Below are positions 6,182-32,088 of a stretch of 32,441 nucleotides of DNA, piece after piece. The position numbers and the translations under genes are program-made. Source of the DNA: Clostridia bacterium (GTDB taxonomy: Bacteria; Bacillota; Clostridia; Christensenellales; Aristaeellaceae); assembly GCA_017550745.1 (NCBI GenBank), contig JAFZOG010000178.1:1-32441 (forward strand), read 5' to 3'. Position 1 is the stretch's first letter; every line of letters starts with the position of its first letter. The notes beneath the pieces were generated by a model. That model was not told where the DNA came from and did not search any database. It saw only the letters and a list, made by a program, of their open reading frames with translations.

Positions 6182-6243
6182 GTCTGCGCCCCTTTCCAAG
6201 ACCGCTGTAATATGAATATTTCACCGTGATAGGAGAGATTCTT

Positions 6244-7449
6244 ATGAATAAGGAGCTGCTTGCGTCCCAGCAAGCCTGGATCCGGGACGAGCTGACCCGC
6301 TGCGCGGATTTCTGGCTCACCCATGGCTGGGATCAGGTGAACGGCGGCGTATACACCTGCCTGGACCGCTGGGGCAACATTTACTCCACCGACAAGAGCG
6401 TGTGGATGCAGGGCCGCTGCGCCTGGACGTACGCCTGGCTGTGCCATCTCTACGGCAAAAAAGCGGAATGGATGGCCTTCGCCAAATCCTGCCTGGACTT
6501 TATGGAAGCCCACTGCATCAACCGGGAGAAGGGCGGCCGCATGTACTTCACCGTCACCGCCGACGGAAAGCCCCTGCGCCAGCGCCGGTATTTTTTCTCC
6601 GAGAGCTTCTACGCCATCGCCAACGCGGAATACTACGCCCTCACCGGCGAAAAGGAATACCTGGACCGGGCGCGCTTCGCCTATGACCTGTACTGGAAGC
6701 TGTACCAGGGCCTGATGGAAGACCCGGTGGGCATGGGCCCCAAAACCTTCCCCGAGACCCGCACGGGCCGCGCCCTGGGCAGCCCCATGATCTACCTGAA
6801 CATCTGCTCCGTCCTGCGCCGCTGCGACCCCGCCCATACGGAGGAATACGACCGGCGCTCCCAGCAGTGCGTGGAGGAAATCTTCAAATACCACCGCAAG
6901 GCAGACATGCACTGCACCCTGGAAAACGTGGGCCCCAACGGGGAATTCCGCGGCGACGTGACCGAGGGCCGCATCGTGAATCCCGGCCATGACATCGAAT
7001 GCTCCTGGTTCCTGATGGAATACGCCAACCACAGGGGCGACAAGGAGCTGCACAGGCAGGCCGAGGCCCTCTTCAACGACGCCATCAACGCGGGCTGGGA
7101 CAAGGAATATAACGGGCTGCTGTACTTCATCGACTGCAAGGGCCTGCCCCCCGAAGCCTACGAGCACGACATGAAGCTGTGGTGGCCCCACAACGAGATC
7201 CTCATCGCCTCCCTCATGGCCTACCGGGACACCGGCGACGAACAGTATTACGCCTGGTTCTGCAAGACGCTGGACTATTGCAGGGAGGTGTTCGCCGACC
7301 CGGAGAACGGCGAATGGTACGGCTACCTCCGCCGCGACGGAAAGCCCACCATGCCCTCCACCAAGGGCTCCACCTTCAAAGGCCCCTTCCACCTGCCAAG
7401 GTGCCTGAGCATGGCTGACCAGATGATCACGCAGCTGCTGAGTAAATAA
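6244..7449 (+). CDS. N-acylglucosamine 2-epimerase (AGE family)
   Basis: A 401-residue (alpha/alpha)6-barrel enzyme of the AGE/renin-binding-protein family, which interconverts N-acetylmannosamine and N-acetylglucosamine. The expected catalytic residues are visible: H249 and E252 in NPGHDIECSW and H383 in KGPFHLPRCL. Length is typical. GGAGA lies before the ATG at 6244; an upstream in-frame start at 6226 overlaps this site and is not preferred. In sialate catabolism this enzyme takes the lyase product directly to GlcNAc, replacing the NanK-NanE kinase/epimerase pair. The GlcNAc would then need a kinase and NagA/NagB from elsewhere. A cellobiose-epimerase-like specificity is the main alternative. 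It is the last gene of the operon; no clear rho-independent terminator follows, only the repeat at 7490-7985. Confidence 0.88.
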   Translation: MNKELLASQQAWIRDELTRCADFWLTHGWDQVNGGVYTCLDRWGNIYSTDKSVWMQGRCAWTYAWLCHLYGKKAEWMAFAKSCLDFMEAHCINREKGGRMYFTVTADGKPLRQRRYFFSESFYAIANAEYYALTGEKEYLDRARFAYDLYWKLYQGLMEDPVGMGPKTFPETRTGRALGSPMIYLNICSVLRRCDPAHTEEYDRRSQQCVEEIFKYHRKADMHCTLENVGPNGEFRGDVTEGRIVNPGHDIECSWFLMEYANHRGDKELHRQAEALFNDAINAGWDKEYNGLLYFIDCKGLPPEAYEHDMKLWWPHNEILIASLMAYRDTGDEQYYAWFCKTLDYCREVFADPENGEWYGYLRRDGKPTMPSTKGSTFKGPFHLPRCLSMADQMITQLLSK

Positions 7450-7489
7450 CAATGATAGCATTCAGTAATGCAAAAACCAACAAAGGGAT

Positions 7490-7985
7490 CGCTGGGGCTG
7501 TTCGCCCCAGACCCGAACCAGGGGCCTGAGGCCCCTGGACCCGCATTAGCGGAAGTTACAACATAGGGAGAGCAGACTTTGTTTCCGCTGAAACTTGAGA
7601 GAAACAGACAAACGATTGACGTTGTGCTTCTGGACCGGCGGCTGAAAGCCGCCTCACCCGGACGCTTCGCGTCCGGGGAAAGCCAGGAAAAATCACCAGG
7701 GGAAAGCGAGCTTTCCCCTGGGATTTTCCCTGGCTTTCTTGGGCCAGAAGCCTGTAACTTCCGAATCTCCAAATCAACTGGCGAATGTTGTTGGTTCTAC
7801 CCAATGGAGTAATTTCGCCTATTGGGATGCAAGGGATGAAATCCCTTGCCGCAGGACGAACCGCCGATGACCGCCTGTGGCGGGTATCTCATCGGCGGTG
7901 AGATCAGCCGAAAGGAAGCAATCTCCCCATGAAGGGGAGTTGCGACCTTTGAGGCTGCGGATCTGGGCGCGCGGAGCGCCCAGCG
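7490..7985. repeat. Family E modular palindromic repeat, long copy (E1)
   Basis: A 496-bp non-coding element fills most of the gap between 7449 and 8046. It opens with the hairpin CGCTGGGGCTGTTCGCCCCAG and closes with TGGGCGCGCGGAGCGCCCA, and the two ends are inverted relatives of one another. Inside are several further hairpins, for example CCAGGGGCCTGAGGCCCCTGG (7518-7538 region), CCGGACGCTTCGCGTCCGG, a long imperfect stem at about 7679-7738, and GCAAGGGATGAAATCCCTTGC. GGAAGTTAC near 7551 pairs with GTAACTTCC near 7753. The 105-bp structured block at 7854-7958 is one module. A related copy is at 10885-11254 and a short one at 29963-30056. Confidence 0.85.
7854..7958 (-). other. 105-bp structured block, copy 1 (inverted orientation)
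   Basis: This block is the reverse complement of 10917-11021. Read on the minus strand it has a hairpin CTCCCC-TTCAT-GGGGAG and a longer arm CCGCCGATGA...TCATCGGCGG enclosing a small CCGCC-ACA-GGCGG hairpin. Comparison with the other two copies shows paired base changes (see findings). It is probably an RNA-forming or foldback-DNA module; no known RNA family is recognised. Confidence 0.7.
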
Positions 7986-8045
7986 TCTCCTCCTTTATCT
8001 GTCTTTGATCCCTGGATTAAAAAACACGAGAGCGGCCATTAACCG

Positions 8046-8088
8046 AAAAAACCGCCCCTGTTCCATGTTGCGGAACAGGGGCGGTTTT
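8046..8088 (-). terminator. Rho-independent terminator of the XRE-cupin-acyl-CoA synthetase gene
   Basis: A perfect 17-bp stem (8048-8064 with 8072-8088, 7-nt loop) is followed on the minus strand by six T residues, starting about 20 bases after the stop codon at 8107. It could also act on the plus strand, where TTTT ends the stem. Confidence 0.93.
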
Positions 8089-8106
8089 GCTTTGGAGAAA
8101 CATGGA

Positions 8107-10380
8107 TTACAGCAGATTCCTCTGAATCTTGCCGCTGATGGTCTTGGGCAGTTCGTCCTTGAACACCACGATGCGGGGGTACTTATAGGGGGCGGTGCGC
8201 TGCTTGACGTAGTTCTGGATTTCCTTCTTGAGCTCTTCGGTGCCTTCCTTGCCCTTGACCAGCACGATGCTGGCCTTGACCACCTGTCCGCGCACAGGGT
8301 CGGGGGCGGCGGAAACGCCGCACTCCAGCACGTAGGGCAGCTCCATGATGACGGACTCGATCTCGAACGGCCCGATGCGGTAGCCGGAGGACTTGATGAG
8401 GTCGTCCACCCGGCCCACGTACCAGAAGAAGCCGTCCTCGTCCCGCCAGGCGGTGTCGCCGGTGTGGTAGAGGCCGTCCGCGTGGTTGTCCTCGATGCCC
8501 ATGTAGCCCAGGTACAGGCCGCAGGCGGGCTTGCCGTCCCCCAGGCGGATGACGATCTCGCCCACCTCGCCCACGGGCACAGGATTTCCGCTGGGGTCAA
8601 CGATGTCCACGTCAAACAGCGGCGAGGGCTTGCCCATGGAGCCGACCTTGGGGGTCATGCCCACCAGGTTGCCCACGGACAGGGTGGTTTCGGTCTGGCC
8701 AAAGCCCTCCATGAGGGAAAGGCCCGTGGCCTTCTGGAACTGGTAGAACACCTCGGGGTTCAGCGCTTCGCCGGCCACGGTGGCGTGGTGGATGGAGGAA
8801 AGGTCGTACTTGCTCAGATCCTCCTTGATCAGCATGCGCAGCATGGTGGGCGGCGCGCAGAAGGTGGCGATATTGTACTGCTTGAACAGCGGCAGGATCT
8901 CTTCCGCGTGGAAGCGGTCAAAGTCGTAGACGAACACCGCGGCCTCGCACAGCCACTGGCCGTACAGCTTGCCCCACAGGGCCTTGCCCCAGCCGGTGTC
9001 GGAGATGGTCAGGTGCAGGCGGCCCGGCTCCACGCAGTGCCAGTATTTGGCGGTGATGAAGTGGCCCATGGGATAGGTGTGGGCGTGGGCCACCAGCTTG
9101 GGATAGCCGGTGGTGCCGGAGGTGAAGAACATCACCATGGGGTCGCGCCCGCAGGCGGTGTCCTCTTCCCGGGAGAAGCGGGAGGAGAAACGGGCGAAGT
9201 CCGCGTCAAAGTCGTGCCAGCCCTCGCGGCTGCCGCCGCAAAGGATCAGCGTCTTGACCGTCGGGCAGGCGGGCAGCGCTTCCTCCACGTGCTCCGCCGC
9301 CTTGCCGTGGGCGGTGCACAGCATGGCGCTGACCTCCGCCTTGTTGAAGCGGTATTCATAGTCGTGGGCCAGCAGCTGGTCGGTGGCGGGGATGGCGATG
9401 GCCCCGATCTTGCAAAGGGCCAGCATGCTCAGCCAGAAGTGGTATTGCCGCCGCAGCACCACCAGCACCTTGTCCCCCTTCTTGATGCCCAGGGAGCGGA
9501 AATAGTTGGCGGCGCGGTTGCTCTGCTTCTTCATATCCAGGAAGGTGAAGCGGCGCTCATGCTTGAATTCGTCCAGGTGCAGCATGGCCAGGGCCTCGGG
9601 CTTGGTATCGGCCAGGGCGTCCACCACGTCGAAGGCGAAGTTGAAGGTGTCCAGGTTCTGGAAGGAAATGGACTGAAGCGCCCCCGTCTCATCCTCCACG
9701 GGCCTGGCGAACTTTTCATAGATATAGTGGGCGTCCTCGGGGGTCTGGCTGGCCCGGATGGTCTGCATCACCTGGCGCTCTTCCACTTCCTCGCCCGGCA
9801 GCACCACGGCCAGGAACACGCAGTCCTGGCCCTCGGCGGCGATCATGCCGTGGGGGGTGGAGGAGTCGTAGTAAATGGAGTCGCCTTCCCGCAGCAGCTC
9901 GATGTTGTGGCCCACCTGCACTTTCATCGCGCCGGAGAGGATGTAGTCGAATTCCTGGCCGGAGTGGGTGGTGGTGTGGATGGGCTTGTCCTGCAAAGCG
10001 GGGTCGTAGGTATAGCGCACGAAATAAGGCTCGGAAATCTTCTTGCGGAACATGGGGGCCAGGTTGCGGATGTCGATGCCCTGCTCCCGGGCCGTCACTT
10101 CGCCCGCGCCCTTGCGGGTGATGGTGTAGGAAGACAGCATGGCGCTGCGGCCTTCCAGCAGGTCGATCATTTCCACCTTGAAGGTCAGGGCGCACTTGTG
10201 CAGGAATGTAAAGGGCAGGTCCATCAGGGCGGCTTCATACCCCCGGTAGGTTTCCTCGCTTACATCGGTCATCCGGGCCATTTCCGCCACGGTGTACCCG
10301 CTGATTTCACGCAGCTCCCGGATACGGGCCGCTACCTCCCGCACCTGGTCGGGAATGTGCTGGGCTTGGGTCATGTCCAT
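8107..10380 (-). CDS. XRE helix-turn-helix / cupin / acyl-CoA synthetase fusion
   Basis: A 757-residue three-part protein. Residues about 12-75 are an XRE helix-turn-helix; 115-195 a cupin_2 barrel with H135, H139, E143 and H177 as likely metal ligands; 225-660 an AMP-binding domain of the medium-chain acyl/acetyl-CoA synthetase kind with the P-loop FFTSGTTGYPK (from residue 418) and GFGQTETT near 557; and 665-757 the mobile C-terminal domain with the catalytic lysine K751 in TISGKIQRN. All ligase motifs look intact, so it should activate a carboxylic acid to acyl-AMP and acyl-CoA. XRE-cupin modules alone are common small-molecule-sensing regulators; joined to the ligase, the protein could regulate its own or other genes according to substrate. 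The start at 10380 has GGAGG upstream; the open frame extends farther but into the T-box. Expression is controlled by the T-box at 10436-10778. The acid substrate is unknown. Confidence 0.85.
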   Translation of the reverse strand: MDMTQAQHIPDQVREVAARIRELREISGYTVAEMARMTDVSEETYRGYEAALMDLPFTFLHKCALTFKVEMIDLLEGRSAMLSSYTITRKGAGEVTAREQGIDIRNLAPMFRKKISEPYFVRYTYDPALQDKPIHTTTHSGQEFDYILSGAMKVQVGHNIELLREGDSIYYDSSTPHGMIAAEGQDCVFLAVVLPGEEVEERQVMQTIRASQTPEDAHYIYEKFARPVEDETGALQSISFQNLDTFNFAFDVVDALADTKPEALAMLHLDEFKHERRFTFLDMKKQSNRAANYFRSLGIKKGDKVLVVLRRQYHFWLSMLALCKIGAIAIPATDQLLAHDYEYRFNKAEVSAMLCTAHGKAAEHVEEALPACPTVKTLILCGGSREGWHDFDADFARFSSRFSREEDTACGRDPMVMFFTSGTTGYPKLVAHAHTYPMGHFITAKYWHCVEPGRLHLTISDTGWGKALWGKLYGQWLCEAAVFVYDFDRFHAEEILPLFKQYNIATFCAPPTMLRMLIKEDLSKYDLSSIHHATVAGEALNPEVFYQFQKATGLSLMEGFGQTETTLSVGNLVGMTPKVGSMGKPSPLFDVDIVDPSGNPVPVGEVGEIVIRLGDGKPACGLYLGYMGIEDNHADGLYHTGDTAWRDEDGFFWYVGRVDDLIKSSGYRIGPFEIESVIMELPYVLECGVSAAPDPVRGQVVKASIVLVKGKEGTEELKKEIQNYVKQRTAPYKYPRIVVFKDELPKTISGKIQRNLL

Positions 10381-15243: not shown

Positions 15244-15301
15244 TAGATAAATTGTTTTCCCAATGTATTTATTCATCTTCGGCCCAGTTTCCGTCGTCCG
15301 T

Positions 15302-15743
15302 GTTACTGCTCAGCCACCCCTGGAGAACCAACGAAGAAACGGAACAAGAGGGGGATTGTCAAGGGATTCTCCCCTTGACGCAGGCTGTCGAAAAAGTTTT
15401 CGACAGCCTGCGAATGAAAGCGGAATCAGGATTCCTCTTTCATTCGATACATCCATTTCCTGCAAAAATGGGTTTTCGACCTCCAAAGGAGGCCGAAAAC
15501 CCTATTTTTACGGTCGGAAATGGATATAGGAAGCAACCTACGGTTGCTCCTCGGCGGCGTGTACGGCGCGAGGACGGAAAATTTTCTGTAAGGAGCGCAG
15601 ACGACTGAAAGATATTTTCCTTCCTTGCGGTTTTTCCGCCCGGAAATCCCACAGGGATTTTAGGAAAAACCGTAGGGCGTTCACGAAAGGGGGGAAGGAT
15701 TCCCCCTTTCGCGTTACTACGAAGCCGAAGGCTGAGTAGTAAC
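15302..15743. repeat. Family B mobile palindromic element, long copy (B1)
   Basis: A 442-bp element with terminal inverted repeats GTTACTGCTCAGCC and GGCTGAGTAGTAAC (13 of 14 match). It is flanked by TCGTCCGT (15294-15301) and GCGTCCGT (15744-15751), a target duplication of eight with one mismatch. Internal hairpins include CGCAGGCTGTCG pairing with its inverse around 15381-15413, CGAATGAAAG...CTTTCATTCG, GGGTTTTCG...CGAAAACCC and a conserved GGTTTTTC...GAAAAACC arm. The block from about 15380 to 15545 is absent from copy B2. It is non-coding and ends 29 bp before the rpoB -35. Confidence 0.9.
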
Positions 15744-15944: not shown

Positions 15945-19661
<3,717 letters not shown>

Positions 19662-19671
19662 GGAGACCAGA

Positions 19672-19779
19672 GGGATTAGGGAATAGGGATTAGCTGGATA
19701 TTGTTTCAAGTATTCCAGCAGTCCGGTTCCGAACGCCCAGCCGCTTTTCCCTGATCCCTGATCCCTGATCCCTAAATCC
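19672..19779. repeat. Family D telomere-like palindrome between rpoB and rpoC
   Basis: The 150-bp gap between rpoB and rpoC contains GGGATTAGGGAATAGGGATT (from 19672) and, 55 bp on, tandem CCCTGAT units ending CCCTAAATCC (19749-19779). The two blocks are inverted relatives. A second small stem, CTGGATA/TATTCCAG, sits between them. The ribosome site GGAGGG for rpoC lies after it at 19795-19800. No gene is present. Confidence 0.85.
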
Positions 19780-19811
19780 TACCCGCGCCACAACGGAGGG
19801 AGTTTGTATCC

Positions 19812-22800
19812 ATGTTTGAACTGACAAATTTAGATTCCATCCAAATCGGCATGGCCTCTTCCGAGCAGATCCTCGCCTGGAGCTATGGCGAAGTGAGCAA
19901 GCCCGAGACCATCAACTACCGCACCCTGAAACCCGAGCGCGACGGCCTGTACTGCGAGCGCATCTTTGGGCCCCAGAAGGACTGGGAATGCTCCTGCGGC
20001 AAGTATAAGCGCGTCAAGTTCAAGGATAAGGACAAGGTGTGCGACAAGTGCGGCGTCCAGATCACCCGGGCCAAGGTGCGCCGCGAGCGCATGGGCCATA
20101 TCGCCCTGGCCGCGCCGGTGAGCCATATCTGGTATTTCAAGGGCATCCCTTCCCGCATGGGCATGCTGCTGGACGTGAGCCCCCGCGCCCTGGAAAAGGT
20201 GCTGTATTTTGCTTCCTATATCGTGCTGAACCCCGGCAACGAAGCGGTCACGAAGGTGGCCCGCAACGAGCTGATCACCGATTCCAAGTACCGCTCCATC
20301 ATGGCCATGACCGAGGAGGAGCGGGGCGAATTCAAGGCCGGCATCGGCGCGGAAGCGGTGAAGGAAATGCTGCTGGCGCTGGACCTGGAGGCGCTCAGCG
20401 AAAGCCTGAAAAAAGAGATCAACGAGCTGATCGAAAAGGAACGCGACCGCGAGGGCGAGGGCCAGAAGCGCACCCACGCGGTAAAGCGCCTGGAAGTGGT
20501 GGAGGCCTTCCGCCTGTCCCACAATAAGCCCGAATGGATGATCATGGACGTGGTGCCCGTCATTCCGCCGGACCTGCGCCCCATGGTGCAGCTGGACGGC
20601 GGCCGCTTCGCCACCTCCGACCTGAACGACCTGTACCGCCGCGTGATCAACCGCAACAACCGTTTAAAGCGGATGCTGGAGCTGGGCACGCCGGACATCA
20701 TCGTGCGCAATGAAAAGCGGATGCTGCAGGAGGCCGTGGACGCCCTGATCGACAACGGCCGCCGCGGACGGCCCGTCACCGGCCCCGGCAACCGGCCCTT
20801 AAAGTCCCTGTCCGACCTGCTGCGCGGCAAGCAGGGCCGTTTCCGCCAGAACCTGCTGGGCAAGCGCGTGGACTATTCCGGCCGTTCCGTGATCGTGGTA
20901 GGCCCCGAGCTGAAGCTGTACCAGTGCGGCCTGCCCAAGGACATGGCGCTGGAGCTGTTCAAGCCCTTCGTGATGGAAAAGCTGGTGTCCCTGCGCATCG
21001 CCCACAACGTGAAATCCGCCAAGCGCATGGTGGAAAAAGTGAAGCCCGAGGTATGGGATATCCTGGAAGACGTGATCAAGGAGCATCCCGTGCTTCTGAA
21101 CCGCGCGCCCACCCTGCACCGCCTGGGCATCCAGGCCTTTGAGCCCATCCTGGTGGAAGGCAAGGCCATCCGCCTGCATCCCCTGTCCTGCACCGCCTAC
21201 AACGCCGACTTTGACGGCGACCAGATGGCCGTGCACGTTCCCCTGAGCATGGAGGCCCAGGCCGAGGCCCGGTTCCTGATGCTGTGCGCCAACAACATCA
21301 TGAAGCCCCAGGACGGCCGGCCCGTTATTTCTCCCACCCAGGACATGGTCATCGGCTGCCACTACCTGACCATCACCCGGGACGACGCCAAGGGCGCGGG
21401 CCGCGTGTTCGCTTCCCCGGACGAGGCCATGATGGCCTACCAGTGCCGGCAGATCGACCTGCAGGCCCCCATCAAGGTGCGCATCGAACGCACCTGGGAG
21501 GGCGTCACCGAGCGCCGTGTCATCGACACCACCCTGGGCCTGCTGATCTTCAACGAAGTCATCCCCCAGGACCTGGGCTTCAAGCCCCGGGAGACCATGG
21601 ACGACCAGTTCGTGCTGGAAATCGACCACCGGGTGGTGAAAAAGCACCTGGGCCAGATCGTGGAAAAGTGCTTCCACGTACACGGCGAAAGCCAGACCGC
21701 CAAGGTGCTGGACGCCATCAAGAACCTGGGCTATAAATACTCCACCCGCGGCGCCATCACCGTGTCCGTGGGCGACATCATCATTCCCCCCGAAAAGCAG
21801 ACCTGGCTGAAAGAGACCGACGACCTGGTGGCCACCATCAACCGCAAATACCGCCGCGGCGAAATGAGCGAGGACGAGCGCTACCGCATGGTCATCGACG
21901 CCTGGCAGAGCACCACCAATAGGCTGAAAAACCGCGTGATGGAAGTGCTGCCGCCCTTCAACCCCATCAGCATGATGACGGGGTCCGGGGCCCGCGGTTC
22001 CGCCGGCCAGGTGGCCCAGCTGGCCGGCATGCGCGGCCTGATGGCTTCTCCTTCCGGACGCGCCATCGAAGTGCCTATCCGCGCCAACTTCCGCGAGGGC
22101 CTGAACGTGCTGGAATTCTTCATGTCCTCCCACGGCAGCCGCAAGTCCCTGGCCGACACCGCCCTGCGTACCGCCGACTCGGGTTACCTGACCCGCCGCC
22201 TGGTGGACGTTTCCCAGGAAGTGATCGTCCGGGAGATCGACTGCTTTGAGACCCGGGGCGAAAAGGTGCGCGGCATCGCCGTGCAGCCCATCGGCGAAAT
22301 CGAGGGCATCGACGACCGCGTGCGCGGACGCTACGCCGCCGAGGATGTGTACCATCCCATCACCGGCGAGCTGATCGTCCACTTGAACGAGCTGATCGAC
22401 TACGAAAAGGCCGAGCTGATCAAGAAGGCCGGCATCACGAAGATGAACGTCCGCTCCGTGCTGACCTGCCACAGCGAGCACGGCGTGTGCGCCCGCTGCT
22501 ACGGCATGAACCTGGCCCACGGCGGCATCGTGGACATCGGCGAAGCGGTGGGCATCATCGCCGCCCAGTCCATCGGCGAGCCCGGCACCCAGCTGACCAT
22601 GCGTACCTTCCACTCCGGCGGCGTGGCCTCCGCGGACGACATCACCCAGGGTCTTCCCCGGGTGGAGGAGCTGTTCGAGGCCCGCAAGCCCAAGCGCGAA
22701 GCCACCCTGTCCGAAATCAGCGGCAAAGTGCAGATCGTGGAGAGCAAGAAAAAGCGCGAGGTCATCGTGACCAGCGAGGACGACCCCAACGAAAAGAAGA

Positions 22801-23369
22801 CCTACCAGATCCACTACGGCGCGCGGCTCAAGGTGGCCGACGGCGACGTGATCCCCGCCGGCGCGGAACTGATCGAGGGCTCCGTCAACCCCCACGACCT
22901 GCTGCGCATCCTGGGCATCCGCGCCGTGCAGGAATACCTGCTGAAAGAAGTGCTTTCCGCTTACTATTCCTCCGGTGTTAAGATCGCCGACAAGCACATC
23001 GAGGTCATCGTGCGCCAGATGCTGCGCAAGGTCCGCGTGGAGGACGCGGGCGATACCGACCTGCTGCCCGGCGGCCTGGTGGACATCTACGAGTTCGAGG
23101 AAGCCAACGAAAAGACCATCATGGCCGGGGGACGCCCCGCCATCGCCAAGCGCATCCTGCTGGGCATCACGAAGGCTTCCCTGGCCACGGATTCCTTCCT
23201 TTCCGCCGCCTCCTTCCAGGAGACCACCCGCGTGCTCACCGAAGCCGCCATCAAGGGCAAGGTGGACCCGCTGCTGGGCCTGAAGGAGAACGTCATCATC
23301 GGCAAGCTCATCCCCGCCGGTACCGGCCTCAAGCGCTACAAGAACATCGAGCTTCAGGAAACCTATTGA
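19812..23369 (+). CDS. rpoC: DNA-directed RNA polymerase beta' subunit
   Basis: A 1185-residue beta' subunit, close to the roughly 1200 residues usual in Bacillota. The N-terminal zinc site is seen as [20 protein letters not shown] with a final CG (from residue 60). The catalytic magnesium loop is [12 protein letters not shown] near residues 464-475. The second zinc site is [11 protein letters not shown] near residue 886. Bridge- and trigger-helix regions (for example GSARGSAGQ-like [19 protein letters not shown]) are intact. GGAGGG lies 11 bases before the ATG. It follows rpoB after the family D palindrome and ends at a strong terminator. Confidence 0.98.
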
Positions 23370-24227: not shown

Positions 24228-25049
24228 TTATTTCATAATATCCTTCAGCGCGCCGTCCAGCCAGTCGCCCTCAAAGAGCTCGATGAGGCCCGCGTCGCAG
24301 GCGGCGGTGAGCTTGGGGTTGATGGGCAGCTTGCCCAGCACGGGCACGCCGAAACGCCGGGCGGTCTCTTCGGCGTGGCTTTCGCCGAAGACGGGAACGT
24401 GCTTCCCGCAGTCCGGGCACACCGCGTAGCTCATGTTTTCCACCAGGCCCTTGACGGGGATCTTCATCATGTCCGCCATGTTCATGGCCTTTTCCACGAT
24501 CATCCCCACCAGCTCCTGGGGGGTGGTGACCACCACGGCGCCGTCCACGGGCACGGACTGGAACACGGTCAGCGGCACGTCGCCGGTTCCCGGAGGCATG
24601 TCAATGAACATGAGGTCGATATCGCCCCAGAGCACGTCCGTCCAGAACTGCTTCACCGTGCCCGCGATGACCGGGCCGCGCCACACCACCGGCGCGGTCT
24701 CGTCGTCCAGCAGCAGGTTCAGGCTCATCATTTTGATGCCGGTCTTGCTCTCCACCGGCAGAATGCCTTCCTCGTTGCCCATGGCGTTCTGCTTGATGCC
24801 GAAGGCCCGGGGAATGGAGGGGCCGGTGATATCGGCGTCCAGGATGGCGGTCTTTAAGCCCGCCCGCTGGGCCAGCACAGCCAGCATCGCCGTCACCAGG
24901 GACTTGCCGACGCCGCCCTTGCCGCTCATGACGGCGACGGCTTTCTTGATATTTGTGCCCTCGTGGGGCTTTTCCAGCAGGCTCTGGGGCTGTTCGCGGC
25001 TGGAACAGTTGGCCCCGCAGGTGGAACAGTCATGGGTGCATTCGCTCAT
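24228..25049 (-). CDS. mrp: Mrp/ApbC (NBP35-type) iron-sulfur cluster carrier ATPase
   Basis: A 273-residue P-loop ATPase of the Mrp/NBP35 group. The deviant Walker A is SGKGGVGKS near residue 42; the DADITGPSIPRAFG and DMPPGTGD motifs follow. The CPDC pair that binds a bridging Fe-S cluster lies near residue 201. An N-terminal cysteine cluster (C4, C8, C11, C15) resembles the NBP35-type extension. It would assemble or hand on Fe-S clusters in the cytoplasm. AAAGGAG precedes the ATG. It starts 33 bases after the stop of the ligase-ACP-oxoamine synthase gene, so it is probably cotranscribed; whether it serves that pathway is unclear, as Mrp genes occur in many contexts. Confidence 0.92.
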   Translation of the reverse strand: MSECTHDCSTCGANCSSREQPQSLLEKPHEGTNIKKAVAVMSGKGGVGKSLVTAMLAVLAQRAGLKTAILDADITGPSIPRAFGIKQNAMGNEEGILPVESKTGIKMMSLNLLLDDETAPVVWRGPVIAGTVKQFWTDVLWGDIDLMFIDMPPGTGDVPLTVFQSVPVDGAVVVTTPQELVGMIVEKAMNMADMMKIPVKGLVENMSYAVCPDCGKHVPVFGESHAEETARRFGVPVLGKLPINPKLTAACDAGLIELFEGDWLDGALKDIMK

Positions 25050-25082
25050 GGATCTATCTCCTTTATGTTTTTGTTTTCTTTC

Positions 25083-28000
25083 TTATGCCGTAGGCGGCAA
25101 TTGAATGCCCGCTTCCCTGGCGCATTCCTTGAGCTTGTCCAGGGCCTCCACGATTTCCTCGGGCCGGTGCTCGCTGATGACGCAGAAGCGGAGGCGCGCC
25201 TTGTTTTTCGGCACGGCGGGGTACACGGCGGGGGGCACGATGACGCCCTTCCTGCGCAGGCGGTTGCTCAGCTCCCAGGCGTCCTCGTCCCTGCCCACCA
25301 GGATGGGCACCACGGCGGTCTCTCCCGCCAGGCAGGTATTGAAGTTGCGCTTATGGGCTTCCTCAATGAAGCACCTGATGTTGCGCCGCATGCGCTCCAT
25401 GATGGTGGGGTCGCTGCGCAGGAGCCTGATGGCCTCCAGGCTGGCCGCGGCCAGGGGCGGGGAAATGCCCACGGAGAACACGAAGCCGGGCAGGTTATAG
25501 CGCATATAATCAATGATGGCATGGCTGCCCGCCAGATAGCCGCCGCACGTGCCAAGGCCCTTGGAGAGGGTGCCGTACTTGATGTCGATGTCGTCCGGGG
25601 CCAGGCCGAAGTATTCGTCCACGCCGCCGCCGGTCTTGCCGATGACGCAGGCGGAGTGGGCCTCGTCCACCATCAGGAAGCAGCCGTACTTCTTTTTCAG
25701 CTTCACGAACTCCGGCACCGGCGCGATGTCGCCGTCCATGGAATAGGCGCCCTCGATGACGATCAGCACCTTGCCGAACTTGTGGCGCTGGGTGCGCAGG
25801 ATGCTTTCCAGGGCGTTCACGTCGCTGTGGGGGAAGGGCTTGGCGGTGGCCTGGGAGAGGCGGCATCCCTGCTCGATGGAGTTATGGGCGATGGCGTCGT
25901 ACACGATCAGGTCGCCCTTGCCGCAGAAATTGCCCACGAAGGTCACGTTGGTGGAGTGGCCGCCCACCAGCACCAGGGCGGTTTCGGTGTGCTTCCATTC
26001 CGCGATGGCGGCTTCCAGCTCCTTGTGGATGCTCTTTTCCCCCGCCAGCAGGCGGCTGCCGGAGGCGGAGGTGCCGTACTTGTCGATGGCGGCTTTGGCG
26101 GCGGCCTTGGTTTCCTCCCGGCCGCTCATGCCCACGTAGTTGTAGGAGCCGAAATCCAGCATCCACTGGTTGTCCACAAAGCTCTTGTCCAGCAGCGGCG
26201 AATCGTGGGCCACAAAATAGGGGTTCTCCTGGCCCTCGCCCATGAGGGACTGGTAGCGCTTCTCAAACGCCTTGTATTCCGGCGCGTCCTCGAAGCGGGT
26301 AATGGGCGTCACCGGCTCCTGATTCTCCGGATTCGCGCTCTCATAGGCCACGTCGCCGCGGACTTTGGCGTACAGCAGGGCGGACAGGTCGTTCACCGTG
26401 GTACACTTGCCGTACTCCTCGGTGGGGATCAGCACGTTGAACTGCTCCTCGATTTTCAGGCTCATGCCCAGCACCTGCAGGCTGTCGCCCCCCAGCTCGT
26501 CGATGAAGTGGGCGTCGTCCCGGATCTGGTCGGGGGATACGTCCAGGGTTTCGGCGTACACCCCCCGGACCTTCTGCTTGATTTCTTCCAATTGCAGGTC
26601 GGAGGGCGTGTTTTCCTCCTGGACGATGGGCGTGTTTTCCTCAGCGGCCACCTCGTCCCGGCGGTTGAAGTCGATCTCCCGGTAGGCCAGCTTCTTTTCC
26701 TCGATCTGCTTTTTCAGCGCCAGGCGCTTGACCTTGATGCCCCCGGCGGTCTGGAATTTTTCGCTGGTCACCAGCACCCGGTTCACCCGCTTTAAGGCGG
26801 GCAAAACGCTGTTGATGCGCCGCACCTGGGCCATGAGGGAAGCGATGTAATCATCGTCCTTATAGTGCTGGCCCAGGTTCAGCACCAGCGTGATATCCTC
26901 ATAATCCACCGCGCCTTTCTTTTTCAGGTGGGGCAGGTGGGACAAAAAGCCCTTTTCCTCTTTATTTTCCCTTTTTTCCCGGGCCTTCACGCCCAGCACG
27001 CAGAACTGCTCCGCCCCCTCCAGCGCGCCGAAGGCGTCCTCGATCTCGTCGGGATACACGTTCTCGCCGGACTCGTTGATGATCACGTCCTTGGCCCGGC
27101 CCTCCACGTACATGCGGCTGCCCTTTTCCAGCCGCACGATATCCCCCGTGCGGAACCAGCCCTCGTCGTCCAGGACGGGGGGCAGCAGCTTTCCGTCCAC
27201 CAGGCGGCCCGTGTGGATGGTGTCGCCCCGGATGTACATTTCGCCCCGGTTGCTCTTTTCCCCGTCGCTCTGCACCCGGTATTCCGCGCTGATGAGGGGC
27301 CGGCCCACGGACCCGGAGGTGCGGGTGATGACGTTCATTTTGGTCTCCACGGAGGTGACGCCCGTTTCCGTCATGCCAAAGCCCGACACCGTGAAGTAGC
27401 CCAGGGCGGACAGGGTGCGCATATGCTCCTTGGGGGTATGGCTGCCGCCCAGGATGATGCACCGCACGTCGGACCCCAGCATCTGGTCGGTGATGGACTT
27501 GAACAGCACGTTCCGCGCGAAATCCAGCCCGAAGCCGGGGGCGATGGACTGGAGCGCCAGGGAAACGCCCCGCAGGGTCTTGAAGCCCGCCCGTTTCAGT
27601 CTGCTCTCCTTGGCCACCCGCTTATTCAGCGCCACGGAAAGATTATTCGCCAGCAGCGGCACGGCCATCAGATGGGTGATCTTAAAGCGCTGGGCGGTTT
27701 TCTGGATGCACTGGGGGCTGCGGTCGTGGAGGTAGACGGTCTCGTACCCCAGGAAATGGATCCATTGCAGGCACACCATGAACCCGAAAATGTGGTGGTA
27801 GGGCAGGAACGCCAGCTGCCGCCTGGGCTCGTCGCAGATGATGCGCCGGTTGGCCCGGTACAGCATTTCCGCGTTCAGCACCTGGCTGCACACAGCCTGT
27901 TCGTTGTACACAAAGACCCGGCTGGTGTCCGTGGTGCCGGAGGTACACAGGGCCACCATGTCGCCGAAGTCGGGCTGAAAGCCCTTTGCTTCCTGGGCCA

Positions 28001-28427
28001 TGGCAAGCTGCCCCAGGGTGAACTGGGCGATGTTTCCCGGCAGGCTCCGGGGGCTTTTGCCGATCAGGGCCACCGCCCCGGCCTGCCCCAGAATGTAGGC
28101 GGTCATTTCGTCGGACAGCGTAAAATCCATCAGCACGGCGTTATATCCCGCCGCCGTCACGCCCCAGAACAAATAAAACCATTCCGGGCAGGTGTCCGCC
28201 TGGATGCCGATGAATCTGCCCTTGTTTTTTCCGCCCAGCGCGGAACGCAGCAGCGCCGCCACGGCATAGGTTTTCGATTTGTATTCCGCGAAGGTGATGG
28301 ACTTTTCCTCGTCCTTCTCCAGCCACCGCGCCGCCACCCGGCTTCCGTCGCCGCAGATCAGCTCAAACAGGTTTTTCAGCGTCATCTTCTCCCGCAGCTT
28401 CTCACTGCGGGCGAGCACTTCACTCAT
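25083..28427 (-). CDS. Acyl-adenylating ligase / acyl carrier protein / alpha-oxoamine synthase fusion
   Basis: A 1114-residue three-domain enzyme. Residues 15-600 are an AMP-binding ligase with CTSGTTDTSR as a divergent P-loop (no G-x-P-K), GFGMTETG near 347, RTGD, and a C-terminal segment with GGIKVKR. Residues about 617-700 are an acyl carrier protein with GGDSL; S649 would carry phosphopantetheine. Residues about 730-1105 are a PLP-dependent alpha-oxoamine synthase: GSRLLAG, DEAHSACVIG and the PLP lysine K956 in TLSKGLG. The expected chemistry is to adenylate a carboxylic acid, load it on the ACP, and condense it with an amino acid by decarboxylation to an alpha-amino ketone. This is the reaction type of serine palmitoyltransferase and of KAPA synthase. 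AGAGGA precedes the ATG at 28427. A reductase gene lies upstream and mrp downstream. The amino acid and acyl chain cannot be told from the sequence. Confidence 0.88.
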   Translation of the reverse strand: MSEVLARSEKLREKMTLKNLFELICGDGSRVAARWLEKDEEKSITFAEYKSKTYAVAALLRSALGGKNKGRFIGIQADTCPEWFYLFWGVTAAGYNAVLMDFTLSDEMTAYILGQAGAVALIGKSPRSLPGNIAQFTLGQLAMAQEAKGFQPDFGDMVALCTSGTTDTSRVFVYNEQAVCSQVLNAEMLYRANRRIICDEPRRQLAFLPYHHIFGFMVCLQWIHFLGYETVYLHDRSPQCIQKTAQRFKITHLMAVPLLANNLSVALNKRVAKESRLKRAGFKTLRGVSLALQSIAPGFGLDFARNVLFKSITDQMLGSDVRCIILGGSHTPKEHMRTLSALGYFTVSGFGMTETGVTSVETKMNVITRTSGSVGRPLISAEYRVQSDGEKSNRGEMYIRGDTIHTGRLVDGKLLPPVLDDEGWFRTGDIVRLEKGSRMYVEGRAKDVIINESGENVYPDEIEDAFGALEGAEQFCVLGVKAREKRENKEEKGFLSHLPHLKKKGAVDYEDITLVLNLGQHYKDDDYIASLMAQVRRINSVLPALKRVNRVLVTSEKFQTAGGIKVKRLALKKQIEEKKLAYREIDFNRRDEVAAEENTPIVQEENTPSDLQLEEIKQKVRGVYAETLDVSPDQIRDDAHFIDELGGDSLQVLGMSLKIEEQFNVLIPTEEYGKCTTVNDLSALLYAKVRGDVAYESANPENQEPVTPITRFEDAPEYKAFEKRYQSLMGEGQENPYFVAHDSPLLDKSFVDNQWMLDFGSYNYVGMSGREETKAAAKAAIDKYGTSASGSRLLAGEKSIHKELEAAIAEWKHTETALVLVGGHSTNVTFVGNFCGKGDLIVYDAIAHNSIEQGCRLSQATAKPFPHSDVNALESILRTQRHKFGKVLIVIEGAYSMDGDIAPVPEFVKLKKKYGCFLMVDEAHSACVIGKTGGGVDEYFGLAPDDIDIKYGTLSKGLGTCGGYLAGSHAIIDYMRYNLPGFVFSVGISPPLAAASLEAIRLLRSDPTIMERMRRNIRCFIEEAHKRNFNTCLAGETAVVPILVGRDEDAWELSNRLRRKGVIVPPAVYPAVPKNKARLRFCVISEHRPEEIVEALDKLKECAREAGIQLPPTA

Positions 28428-28455
28428 GTTGTTTCCTCTTTCTTTGTGATAAAAA

Positions 28456-28500
28456 GTGGGGGAAACCGCTCTTTGGAGGCCAAAGAGCGGTTTCCCCCAC
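28456..28500 (-). terminator. Perfect 21-bp hairpin with T run ahead of the fusion gene
   Basis: 28456-28476 and 28480-28500 are perfectly complementary with a 3-nt loop, and on the minus strand the stem is followed by TTTTT (28451-28455), 23 bases before the ATG at 28427. It has the form of an intrinsic terminator between the reductase and the fusion gene. It could be a partial terminator, an attenuator or an mRNA-stability element. A weak promoter (GATAAT near 28535) may exist in the 72 bases upstream. Confidence 0.8.
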
Positions 28501-28572
28501 ACCCCCTTCCGAGAAAGCCATAAGGGCTGGGGTATTATCAATCGTTCTTTGGTTAAAGCGGAAGAAAATCGT

Positions 28573-29379
28573 CTACGAATAATACGGCCCGATGATCCGA
28601 TCAAACAGCGCGGGGGGGAGAATATCGTGCAATATCACCGCCAGATGCTGGTCGGGCTTCGCCACGCGGAGGCGGCGGGGCAGGCGCTTTTTTTTCAGCG
28701 CCTGTACGATCTTTTCCCCCAGCGCGTCCGGGTCGCTGCCGTTCTGTTCGTCCTGGGCGATCCGGGCGGTGCCCGCGTCAAAGGCGGCTTTGTAGGGGGA
28801 ATCGCTGGTCATGCCCGCGGCGTGCTTTCGGTACGCGCTGCTGCCGCTGCGGTGGTCCCCCGGCTCCACCAGCATGATTTCGATGCCGAAGCGCTTGACC
28901 TCATAGCTCAGGCACTCCGAGTATCCCTCGATGGCGTGCTTGCTGGCGGTGTACGCCCCCTCAAAGGGGATCCCCAGCAGGCCGTTGATGGAGGAAAAGT
29001 TCACGATGCGGCCCTTGCCTTTTTCCCGCATGAAGGGCAGCACCCTGGAAATCATGGCCGCCTGGCTGAAAAAGTTGGTTTCCATTACCTGGCGAAGCTC
29101 CTCCGGGCTGTAGCTTTCGCACGCCCCGAGGATCAGCATGCCGGCGCAGTTCACCAGGATGTCCGGCGGGCCGTATGCTTTCAGCGCCTGGGAAACGAAA
29201 GCGTCGATGCTCTCCGGGCTGGTCACGTCCAGCGGCAGGCAGAGGCAGCCCGCCGCCGTTTTTCCCCTGCCAAAGGAGCGCGCCCCCGCCGCCACGGTGA
29301 ACCCGTGCCGGGCCAGCGCCTGGGCCGTATGCAGCCCCAGCCCGCTGGACGCGCCGGTGATCCAAACCACCTGGGCCAT
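28573..29379 (-). CDS. Short-chain dehydrogenase/reductase
   Basis: A 268-residue classical SDR. The dinucleotide site is TGASSGLG (8-15), the structural motif is NCAG (77-80), and the catalytic residues are N102, S130, Y143 and K147 (YTASK). AGGAGG lies a few bases before the ATG at 29379; a longer frame upstream overlaps the promoter and is rejected. It is the first gene of a minus-strand operon with the ligase-ACP-oxoamine synthase. A 3-ketosphinganine-reductase-like role, reducing the ketone made by the fusion enzyme, fits the context. The sequence alone would also fit other SDR substrates. Confidence 0.87.
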   Translation of the reverse strand: MAQVVWITGASSGLGLHTAQALARHGFTVAAGARSFGRGKTAAGCLCLPLDVTSPESIDAFVSQALKAYGPPDILVNCAGMLILGACESYSPEELRQVMETNFFSQAAMISRVLPFMREKGKGRIVNFSSINGLLGIPFEGAYTASKHAIEGYSECLSYEVKRFGIEIMLVEPGDHRSGSSAYRKHAAGMTSDSPYKAAFDAGTARIAQDEQNGSDPDALGEKIVQALKKKRLPRRLRVAKPDQHLAVILHDILPPALFDRIIGPYYS

Positions 29380-29413
29380 ACTGCCCCCTCCTTCCATACG
29401 CGCATACATTTTT

Positions 29414-29442
29414 ATTATACGCCATTTCCCATGAGATTGCAA
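29414..29442 (-). promoter_or_regulatory. Promoter of the SDR / ligase-ACP-oxoamine synthase operon
   Basis: TTGCAA (29437-29442), a 17-bp spacer and a perfect TATAAT (29414-29419) on the minus strand. It begins 29 bp from the end of the family B element at 29472. Confidence 0.87.
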
Positions 29443-29471
29443 ACTATTACGGCCCATAAACAAAATAAATA

Positions 29472-29752
29472 GTTACTACTCAGCCTCCGGCTTCGTAGTA
29501 ACACGCGGGCGGGTATTGCATACCCCCCGCGTGCCCCCCGCACGGTTTTTCCTAAAATTCCTACGGAATTTCCGGGCGGAAAAACCGCAAGGTAGGAAAA
29601 TTTCATCTGGTCGTCTACGCTCCCGTCTGAAATTTTCCGTCCTCGCGGCGTACACGCCGCCGCTGCGGATCTCCGTCAAGGGGTGTGCCCCTTGACAATC
29701 CCCCTCGCAAACCGTTTCTTGTCGTCTCTCTCGGGGTAGGCTGAGTAGTAAC
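29472..29752. repeat. Family B mobile palindromic element, short copy (B2)
   Basis: A 281-bp element with perfect 14-bp terminal inverted repeats GTTACTACTCAGCC and an exact 8-bp target duplication AATAAATA (29464-29471 and 29753-29760). It is inverted relative to B1. It shares the terminal hairpin, the GTCAAGGGG/CCCCTTGAC stem, the GGCGGCGTGTACGCCGC hairpin and the CGGTTTTTCC arm. It has no coding capacity, so it would need a transposase acting in trans. Confidence 0.93.
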
Positions 29753-29788
29753 AATAAATACCCTGCTCTCCCGTTATCATTCAGCTAT

Positions 29789-29953
29789 TAGGGGGTGTTC
29801 ACACTACCCGAAAAGAGCTGATTCTGAGATGATTTTTCGTCAGGCAAGGCGCATTTCCGCAGGAATACTGGCGGTATTTCAAGGAAATGCAACGCTGCAT
29901 GACGGAAAATCAACCAGAATTCAGCCTTTGAGCGGCAGTGTGAACACTCCCTA
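29789..29953. repeat. Family A palindromic repeat, complete copy
   Basis: A 165-bp element including a TA at each end. Terminal inverted repeats are GGGGGTGTTCACACTACC and its near inverse GGCAGTGTGAACACTCCC. Inner arms pair from GCTGATTCTG...GATTTTTCGTCA with TGACGGAAAATC...CAGAATTCAGC. The TA borders suggest insertion at a TA dinucleotide. Confidence 0.88.
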
Positions 29954-30162: not shown

Positions 30163-30228
30163 ATGGCAAGACGCAACGGCGGCAAGCCGTTTGCGGCTTT
30201 ATCACCCACACGGGAGGCTGAAAGTATC

Positions 30229-32088
30229 ATGGAAAATAAGGGCAATATTTCGATCCACGCGCAAAATATCATGCCGGTGATCAAGCGCTGGCTGTATTCC
30301 GATAAGGACATCTTCATCCGCGAAATGGTCAGCAACGGCTGCGACGCCATCACCAAGTACAAGATGCTCCACGCCGACACGGACGAGGACCTGCGGGTCA
30401 CCGTCACCGTGGACAAGGAAGCGGGCGAATTGCGCTTCACTGACAACGGCATCGGCATGACCGCCGAGGAAGTGGAAAAGTACATCAACCAGGTGGCCTT
30501 CTCCAGCGCCGAGGAATTTTTGAAGAACTACACCGGCGACGACAAGGGCGGCATCATCGGCCATTTCGGGCTGGGCTTCTATTCCGCGTTCATGGCGGCG
30601 GACAAGGTGACCATTGACACCCTTTCCTATCAGGAGGGAGCTGCGCCCGTGCTGTGGGAGAGCGAGGACGGCATGGCCTTTTCCATGCGGGACGGCGGAC
30701 GTACCGAGCGGGGCACCACCATCATCCTGCACATCACCGACGAAGAAAAGGAATTCCTGGACGGCTACCGGGTGCGGGAAGTGCTGAACCGCTACTGCGG
30801 CTATATGAGCGTGCCGATCTACCTGGAGAACCTGACCGGGGACGAAACCAAGAAGGACACCGACGAGCCCACCGGCACCGAGGAAGAGGAAAAGGCGAAG
30901 GCGGAAACCCCCATCAACGACGTGCATCCCCTTTGGCTCAAAAACCCCAAGGACTGCACCGAGGAGGAATACAAGGAAACCTACCGCAAGCTGTTCCACA
31001 CCTTTGAAGAGCCGCTGTTCTGGGTGCATCTGAATGTGGACTACCCCTTCAACCTCAAGGGCATCCTCTACTTCCCCCGCATCAAGCGGGACTTCGGCGG
31101 CCAGGAGGGGGAAATCAAGCTGTTCAACCGCCAGGTGTTCGTGGCGGACAACATCAAGGAGGTCATCCCCGAGTTTCTGATGCTGCTCAAGGGCGTCATC
31201 GACTGCCCCGACCTGCCCCTGAACGTATCCCGTTCCTTCCTGCAGAACGACGGGTACGTAAAGAAGCTCTCCGCCCACATCACCAAGAAGGTGGCGGACA
31301 AGCTGAACGGCCTGTTCAACACCGAGCGCAAGCAGTATGAAACCTACTGGGACGACATCCATCCCTTCGTCAAGTACGGCTGCGTGCGGGACAGCAAGTT
31401 CTACGACATGGTGAAGGGCAGCCTGCTGTTCAAGACCACCAAGGGCGAATACCTGACCCTGGACGAGTACCGCGCCCGCAACGAGGGCAAGGCGGAAAAG
31501 AAGGTCTATTACACCACCGAACAGAACCGCCAGGCCGCGGCCGTGGCGCTGTACACCGACAAAGGCATCGACGTGGCGGTGATGGACACCCTGATCGACA
31601 TGAACTTCATGAGCTTCATGGAGTTCGGCGGCGGCAACGACGGGCTGCAGTTCGCCCGGGTGGACGCGGACGTGTCCGGCCTCACCGAGGAAAGCGAAGA
31701 GGGCAAGGACATCGACCAGCATCAGATGGAAACCCTCTTCCGCAACGCGCTGAACGACCAGGAGCTGACGGTGAAGATCGAGGCCCTCAGCGACCGCAAT
31801 CTGCCCGTGATGCTCACGGAAGAAGAACAGGTGCGCCGCTACAAGGAAATGAGCGCCATGTACGGCCAGGATTTCGGCTTCCCCACCAAGTATACCCTGG
31901 TGCTGAACCGCCTCTGCCCCACTGTCCGCGCTCTGGCCTCCATGGAGGAAGGCGACGTGAGCCACCTGCTGTGCAAGCAGCTCTTTGACCTGGCCCGCCT
32001 CTCCAGCCGTCCCCTGGAAGCGGAGGACCTCAAGGACTTTATCGCCCGCAGCAACGAGCTGGTGGCCATGATGGCGGAGAAGGGATGA
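30229..32088 (+). CDS. htpG: Molecular chaperone HtpG (Hsp90)
   Basis: A 619-residue cytosolic Hsp90. The N-terminal GHKL ATPase domain shows IFIREMVSNGCDA (the catalytic glutamate and Mg-binding asparagine), DNGIGMTAEEV and GHFGLGFYSAFMAADKV (lid and glycine loops). The middle domain includes SRSFLQND with the conserved arginine. The C-terminal dimerisation domain is present and there is no eukaryotic MEEVD tail. A charged linker (about residues 205-225, TKKDTDEPTGTEEEEKAKAE) is longer than in E. coli HtpG. The open frame extends upstream to 30163, but that would start inside the -10/start region, so the ATG at 30229 is preferred. Control by HrcA through the CIRCE element is expected. Confidence 0.97.
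   Translation: MENKGNISIHAQNIMPVIKRWLYSDKDIFIREMVSNGCDAITKYKMLHADTDEDLRVTVTVDKEAGELRFTDNGIGMTAEEVEKYINQVAFSSAEEFLKNYTGDDKGGIIGHFGLGFYSAFMAADKVTIDTLSYQEGAAPVLWESEDGMAFSMRDGGRTERGTTIILHITDEEKEFLDGYRVREVLNRYCGYMSVPIYLENLTGDETKKDTDEPTGTEEEEKAKAETPINDVHPLWLKNPKDCTEEEYKETYRKLFHTFEEPLFWVHLNVDYPFNLKGILYFPRIKRDFGGQEGEIKLFNRQVFVADNIKEVIPEFLMLLKGVIDCPDLPLNVSRSFLQNDGYVKKLSAHITKKVADKLNGLFNTERKQYETYWDDIHPFVKYGCVRDSKFYDMVKGSLLFKTTKGEYLTLDEYRARNEGKAEKKVYYTTEQNRQAAAVALYTDKGIDVAVMDTLIDMNFMSFMEFGGGNDGLQFARVDADVSGLTEESEEGKDIDQHQMETLFRNALNDQELTVKIEALSDRNLPVMLTEEEQVRRYKEMSAMYGQDFGFPTKYTLVLNRLCPTVRALASMEEGDVSHLLCKQLFDLARLSSRPLEAEDLKDFIARSNELVAMMAEKG

Follow-up and report, generated by a model that had tools for sequence, protein, structure and literature searches.

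What does a bacterium of the Clostridia produce with a protein that joins an acyl-adenylating ligase, an acyl carrier protein (ACP), and an alpha-oxoamine synthase (AOS) in one chain? The question is raised by a DNA stretch of 32,441 nucleotides (contig JAFZOG010000178.1 of assembly GCA_017550745.1, called C38 here), which we refer to at its full length as the window. Just upstream of the gene for this fusion is a gene for a short-chain dehydrogenase/reductase (SDR). Judging from sequence comparisons, we consider it probable that the fusion is a self-loading sphingoid-base synthase and the SDR its ketone reductase, and that the pair would convert a fatty acid and probably L-serine to a sphinganine-like base. 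The features on which this proposal is built are as follows.

28573..29379 (-): SDR of 268 aa, putative 3-keto long-chain-base reductase (PF00106, 6.8e-43; NF049977, 226.8 bits with a cut-off of 400; co-occurrence)
25083..28427 (-): ligase-ACP-AOS fusion of 1114 aa (single open frame; Pfam domains; 27 relatives aligned full length)
27213..28340 (-): AMP-binding (adenylating ligase) domain, residues 30-405 (PF00501, 2e-39)
26373..26576 (-): acyl carrier domain, residues 618-685, phosphopantetheine serine S649 with codon 26483-26481 (PF00550, 4e-12)
25131..26162 (-): AOS domain, residues 756-1099, pyridoxal phosphate (PLP) lysine K956 with codon 25562-25560 (PF00155, 1.9e-47; active-site columns; trees)

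In the proposed pathway, the ligase domain would use ATP to convert a free fatty acid to an acyl-AMP, and the acyl group would then move to S649 of the fused carrier, where the phosphopantetheine arm would bind it as a thioester. The AOS domain, with PLP on K956, would join this thioester to an amino acid that is most likely L-serine and release CO2 to yield a 3-keto long-chain base, whose ketone the SDR would reduce with NAD(P)H to a sphinganine-like amino alcohol. Other enzymes would convert this base to membrane lipids. We infer that the carrier arm would serve the ligase and AOS of its own chain or of a partner chain in a dimer, and that the ACP fusion would free the synthase from a need for acyl-CoA. 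L-serine is favored because PfSgaB, an AOS encoded beside a polyketide synthase (PKS), strongly prefers it over Ala and Gly (PMC12134224).

Domains and phylogenetic place of the fusion protein

The fusion reading frame runs from an ATG at 28427 to a stop that ends at 25083 without internal stops, and its Pfam matches fall in the order AMP-binding, PP-binding, Aminotran_1_2. Residues are counted from the ATG, and the boundaries of the AMP-binding domain were shifted by one to match. An earlier note on this DNA had described a ligase, an ACP with GGDSL at S649, and an AOS with K956 on one chain; the open frame, the Pfam order, and the residue count all confirm that description. Both S649, as part of an invariant D648-S649-L650, and K956, within GTLSKG, are unchanged across the 27 aligned fusions, and because of this the intact architecture is well beyond chance. 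A degenerate relative outside that alignment (L136, 9986-13177) is also a ligase-ACP-AOS protein, but it lacks the PLP-lysine motif, with GSLCGAF in place of the GTLSKGL of others. It is possibly an inactive, regulatory, or LCB1-like partner.

Sequence conservation in the ligase extends to about residue 570 and includes K565, which is invariant in the same alignment and which we take to be the catalytic lysine. Profile searches placed FadD13 (4.8e-45) and 2-succinylbenzoate-CoA ligase (1.8e-43) on top, with 4-coumarate-CoA ligase among the first matches and acyl-ACP synthetase at 1.9e-24. Such similarities fit a domain that activates a carboxylate. A fatty acid would be the substrate by the kinship of the AOS domain and by analogy to Caulobacter, where AasR, AcpR, and serine palmitoyltransferase (SPT), encoded by separate genes, yield 3-oxo-sphinganine (PMC9386255).

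For the AOS domain, a comparison was made with the SPT of Sphingobacterium multivorum. Its key residues His138, Ser185, Asp210, Ala212, His213, Thr241, Ser243, and Lys244 (PMC10196870) and Arg366 (PMC3870968) align with H848, S896, D921, A923, H924, T953, S955, K956, and R1080 of the fusion, and judged from this alignment the active-site columns agree with those of SPT. At the position of Asn52 the fusion carries Y762, as do Sphingomonas SPT and eukaryotic SPT2, and all three have the motif YNY. This motif is only suggestive of SPT kinship because S. multivorum SPT lacks it. In addition, the fusion has S791 in a GSR that is common to bacterial SPT rows, where HemA has GTR, Kbl has SVR, and BioF has GSG. 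One loop reads PPAVYPAVP in the fusion versus PPATP in most SPT rows.

Two IQ-TREE trees of AOSs were made, with 65 and 60 rows. The second is without L136 (PLP lysine lost), L127 (gapped), and 12 thinned rows, and both are without PfSgaB, PigH/RedN, SxtA, cysteate acyltransferase, A1ZVW4, and A3ZWL3. In the 60-row tree, 27 fusion and stand-alone AOS rows form one group (support 100/100). Its sister (100/97) is a set of eight AOSs within which the fusion group is not nested: that of Planktothrix is part of a type I PKS, those of Pseudomonas, Paraburkholderia, Caballeronia, and Shinella adjoin such a PKS or the gene next to it, and three are others. Eukaryotic SPT2 joins the fusion-type and PKS-linked AOSs at 99/95, and canonical bacterial SPT (99/93), Kbl, BioF, and HemA are placed elsewhere.

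Membership of the AOS in BioF, Kbl, or HemA is ruled out by the trees. Approximately unbiased (AU) tests also reject a clade with Kbl (3.5e-49) or BioF (9.7e-35), and a p value of 1.6e-4 rules out membership in canonical bacterial SPT; the groups for these tests were defined with a tree already in view, which counts against them. A position inside BioF or Kbl had been set beforehand, by the earlier note, as evidence that would overturn its idea, and the AOS lies outside both.

Distribution and the partner reductase

The SDR begins with an ATG at 29379, and it carries by eye both TGASSGLG and S...YxxxK in addition to its adh_short match, in agreement with the earlier description of an SDR with an intact active site upstream of the fusion. 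Its top NCBIfam model is NF049977 (3-ketodihydrosphingosine reductase), which ranks first for six of the seven fusion-adjacent SDRs scanned (the window, L066, L109, L112, L117, and L125). Within the window's own genome, the SDR scores 226.7 bits with this model versus 98.1 for the next of 8.

The association of this SDR with the AOS was surveyed in 120 genomes of the window's family, using matches at E<=1e-20 and sorting the hit table by hand. Some match is present in 92 genomes, and 63 have the fusion-type AOS: 45 as the fusion (contig-end fragments included) and 18 as a stand-alone protein that is about 65-72% identical to the C-terminal domain of the fusion. An SDR ortholog (E<=1e-45) occurs in 53 of the 63 AOS-bearing genomes versus 4 of the 57 without the AOS (Fisher p 6e-19). 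By genus, the counts are 20/24 with the AOS and 2/26 without (p 6e-8), and both p values ignore kinship.

A pattern scan of named genomes, of which the best 80 loci were kept, provides all counts of named fusion loci. The fusion frame is found in at least 67: 55 from Bacillota, 5 from Bacteroidota, 4 from Planctomycetota, 2 from Treponema, and 1 from Burkholderiales. Among the matches listed, the SDR lies within 500 bp of the fusion in 34 of 67 loci (29/55 when both flanks are at least 900 bp long), a count obtained with four SDR queries, three of them from fusion-adjacent genes, which favors finding adjacent SDRs. Of these SDRs, 28 lie upstream in the same orientation, 5 downstream, and 1 is divergent, and because the placement varies in this way the pairing is independent of one inherited order. 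Non-adjacent SDR matches are rare, with 1 in 919 kb of flanks of the listed fusions versus 34 within 500 bp. Some genomes have the SDR farther away, for example on another contig in G066 and G112 and at a distance of about 6 kb in G091. The prediction that the SDR is conserved with the AOS thus stands for co-occurrence in the family, but adjacency is not universal.

At one locus of the window's own family (L194 of G005, 6186-8197), a canonical-SPT-like AOS and a ketodihydrosphingosine reductase (KDSR)-like SDR are encoded on the same strand. This SDR shares 46-49% identity with the SDRs beside the fusions of L112, L117, L125, and L135, which come from Treponema, Lachnospiraceae, and Oscillospiraceae metagenome-assembled genomes (MAGs). 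By this similarity, one reductase subfamily appears to serve both kinds of condensing enzyme, fusion and canonical-SPT-like. We regard this as the best argument that the fusion performs SPT-like chemistry, because a single SDR subfamily accompanies both. The SDRs beside the PKS-linked AOSs of L201 and L203 are not close to that of the window (29-32% over part).

Canonical-SPT-like AOSs that group with Sphingobacterium SPT are present in about 16 of the 120 family genomes, four of which were placed in a tree. They share a genome with the fusion-type AOS in only 1 of the 16 (p 6e-5, uncorrected), as expected of alternatives for one job. These genomes and the 18 with stand-alone fusion relatives correct the earlier view that stand-alone Spt is not typical in such organisms. 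In the 65-row tree the stand-alone AOSs branch at two or more points within the fusion group, which suggests that ligase and carrier were lost repeatedly in those lines. No separate ligase for them was found nearby, or as a close match at E<=1e-20 in the 120 family genomes.

Beyond the family, 398 sampled genomes of the phylum included 30 with a match at E<=1e-80, the window's own genome among them. Three others are fusion-like by coverage and identity, namely G155 and G459 (both ACP-AOS, no ligase) and G431 (ligase-ACP, no AOS), and the remaining 26 are AOS-only matches of 35-41% identity that are outside the trees. The fusion carriers listed among named genomes are nearly all MAGs, many from rumen or gut, and Clostridium sp. 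N3C (L109) is not labeled as one. Occurrences in scattered phyla need care because of this origin. The window's own genome is 88.8% complete with 7.45% contamination, and it has a second fusion (L051, contig C163) that is 98.9% identical to that of G066, a genome of another genus; contig C163 is probably a contaminant.

It is nearly as likely as not that many uncultured gut and rumen Clostridia, along with Planctomycetota, Treponema, Bacteroidales, and Burkholderiales here and there, produce sphingolipids by means of a single-chain synthase, with acyl-ACP synthetase, ACP, and SPT in one protein and an AOS neighboring eukaryotic SPT2, together with eukaryote-like ketone reduction, and that in the window's lineage this system replaces canonical SPT, found mostly in genomes that lack the fusion-type AOS. 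Work on gut bacterial sphingolipids has centered on Bacteroidota, and these lipids have seldom been linked to Clostridia-type bacteria. If our proposal is true, sphingoid bases in the gut and rumen would also come from Clostridia, in a group that is widespread. The compact gene pair would be suited to heterologous production, and the AOS would offer a bacterial point of comparison beside eukaryotic SPT2.

Alternative products and known systems

Several observations weigh against a sphingoid-base synthase. The YNY motif is not diagnostic, in that it is missing from the SPTs of S. multivorum and Roseomonas. The AOS falls short of the NCBIfam SPT models (284, 269, and 223.5 bits with cut-offs of 640, 500, and 670), as do the canonical-SPT-like L166 and L174 of the window's family for NF047600 (542 and 504 of 640), and its top model is bioF (TIGR00858, 332.7 bits, cut-off 426). 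The similarity of the ligase to CoA ligases and to aryl-acid ligases does not fix the acid that it uses. The NF049977 cut-off is missed by all 8 scanned SDRs that lie beside an AOS, that of the window included, the model ranks second for the SDR of L135, and sub-cut-off matches occur in 13 of 14 control genomes. An SDR ortholog is missing from 10 of the 63 AOS-bearing genomes at E<=1e-45 and is present in 4 that lack the AOS. Among the matches listed, 33 of 67 fusion loci have no adjacent SDR, including the four from Planctomycetota, the Burkholderiales locus, and the Bacteroidota loci except L127, and genome-wide SDR presence was surveyed in the window's family only. Finally, sequence kinship alone can mislead because an SPT homolog of Nostoc punctiforme gave no sphingolipid (PMC8895605). 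The sphingoid-type pathway of the earlier note is supported in part, by an AOS that is neither BioF nor Kbl and by the associated SDR, but the AOS is outside the canonical bacterial SPT clade.

The position outside that clade and the departure of PPAVYPAVP from PPATP would also suit the same chemistry with another amino acid. L-alanine or glycine would give 1-deoxy or desmethyl bases, and with one of these or an acidic amino acid such as cysteate the product would be a deoxysphingoid-like or capnine-like amino lipid. AOS enzymes are permissive, and the SPT of S. multivorum accepts L-Ala, Gly, and L-homoserine as well (PMC10196870). We nevertheless judge this outcome unlikely, considering that the sister group holds PKS-linked AOSs of the type of the L-serine-preferring PfSgaB (PMC12134224), and that S791 in GSR matches bacterial SPT rows and differs from HemA, Kbl, and BioF. 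There is a rather slim chance that the product is a specialized secondary metabolite with a short or unusual acyl group, such as a signal, pyrrole, or pyrazine, and not a membrane lipid. Natural-product clusters are known to encode proteins with an ACP-AOS arrangement (PMC3870968, Table 2), the distribution of the fusion is patchy, and in the Burkholderiales locus two desaturase genes and another ligase gene adjoin the fusion. Against this stand the ketodihydrosphingosine reductase model as the best match of the SDR, the commonness of the fusion-type AOS in one family, as expected of core metabolism, and the lack of a widely conserved neighbor family other than the SDR, given that the next same-region clusters, antisense frames aside, cover no more than 10 of 80 loci.

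It is very improbable that the AOS belongs to biotin or threonine metabolism, as a BioF- or Kbl-type enzyme to which a ligase and carrier were added. The rank of the bioF model would agree with such an enzyme, as would the window's own genome, where no AOS match (E<=1e-20) was found besides the two fusions, one of them probably from a contaminant. Other Kbl/BioF-side models are also below cut-off, however (TIGR01822, 232.6/493; PRK06939, 285.3/460), and the AU tests reject both clades. The neighboring genes read are for the SDR, Mrp, and HtpG, and close relatives hold the fusion plus a separate Kbl-like gene, as in G069 (L003 and L169).

A self-loading sphingoid-base synthase would combine features of several known systems. 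The AasR-AcpR-SPT system of Caulobacter crescentus (PMC9386255) also comprises an acyl-ACP synthetase, a dedicated ACP, and an SPT-type AOS, with the acyl group on a carrier and not on CoA. It differs in having three genes in place of one polypeptide, and here the AOS is outside that SPT clade and has a KDSR-like SDR as partner. According to the article on Caulobacter, E. coli BL21 also possesses spt, acpR, and aasR genes. In PfSgaA-SgaB-SgaC, which makes PKS-derived sphingolipids, the AOS is of PKS-linked kinship and an SDR is the proposed ketone reductase, but an iterative PKS encoded by a separate gene builds the acyl chain, whereas the ligase domain here would load a ready-made acid (PMC12134224). 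Bacteroides SPT and its 3-ketosphinganine reductase BT_0972 likewise combine condensation with SDR reduction in a gut bacterium; that SPT is stand-alone, and BT_0972 is likened by description (PMC9278070).

Eukaryotic SPT is an acyl-CoA-using membrane heterodimer. Its SPT2/LCB2 subunit is the tree neighbor of the fusion and PKS-linked AOSs, GSYNY and CGGYxAG are common to it and the fusion, and an SDR-type KDS reductase follows in the pathway; the difference is a fused carrier here versus acyl-CoA there. The identical Pfam order, AMP-binding, carrier domain, and Aminotran_1_2, was tabulated in 2013 as A-CP-PLP2 proteins of Microscilla marina (A1ZVW4) and Blastopirellula marina (A3ZWL3), and we liken these by domain order alone. 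The accessible part of that article (PMC3870968, Table 2) files them under nonribosomal peptide synthetase/PKS systems without product, function, or cluster type, and there mentions no SDR, Clostridia, or sphingoid reading. Already known, then, are the domain order, an SPT with a dedicated acyl-ACP synthetase and ACP as separate genes, and an AOS with a PKS and SDR. Among the matches listed from the open-access literature, we did not find the fusion as an SPT or sphingoid-base synthase, its presence in Clostridia, or, for Clostridia, its association with a KDSR-like SDR.

Neighboring genes and intergenic elements

The surroundings of the gene pair contain the following features.

15945-23369: rpoB/rpoC, one flank of the SDR/fusion/Mrp gene block
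24228-25049 (-): Mrp/NBP35-type ATPase gene, inside the span given by the earlier note
28456..28500 (-): hairpin in the gap between the SDR and fusion genes, with a 20-pair stem and then a T run; one copy of a repeat that is dispersed in the genome
29414..29443 (-): promoter-like site (TTTGCA or TTGCAA, spacer 18 or 17, TATAAT), 10/12 matches; weak over background
30163-32088: htpG, the other flank of the block

A shared operon of the fusion and the Mrp gene was considered and rejected, as the two adjoin in near relatives only (L052 and L071). No type I PKS adjoins the fusion among the genes read at 23.4-32.1 kb. Neighbor clustering, used in a search for a conserved downstream lipid gene, gave only the SDR, frames antisense to it, and families confined to 10 or fewer of the 80 loci, and Pfam scans of selected neighbors gave mixed families without a common theme. 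In the Burkholderiales MAG (L120, 13370-19532), the fusion is followed by two fatty-acid-desaturase-family genes, an amidohydrolase gene, and a gene for a second AMP-binding enzyme. Two ligase-less ACP-AOS genes (L190, 6621-8204; L191, 7145-8719) each have a CDP-alcohol phosphatidyltransferase gene directly upstream. On Streptomyces plasmids (L153 and L205), one cluster has separate genes for an AOS, ketosynthases, an SDR, an AMP-binding enzyme, and a carrier protein, an unfused counterpart of the fusion in a natural-product setting.

The consensus promoter that had been noted before the SDR does exist as a site at 29443-29414, but it is one of 4 such sites in 6.5 kb, and shuffled sequences give 2.3 (sd 1.7). 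Relatives with an upstream SDR mostly have overlapping genes or a gap of at most about 30 bases, and in the window 145 bases that include the hairpin separate the SDR and fusion. A role for this hairpin as terminator of an SDR-fusion operon is weakened, and not necessarily to be expected, because it is a copy of a dispersed repeat: a 135-base query has 85 matches in the window's own genome, counting the query itself and opposite-strand palindrome matches. Another dispersed intergenic repeat, at 29470-29800, has inverted ends ttactactcagcct and aggctgagtagtaa (by eye) and 30 own-genome matches, itself included, with further copies at 15552-15743 and 15301-15383.

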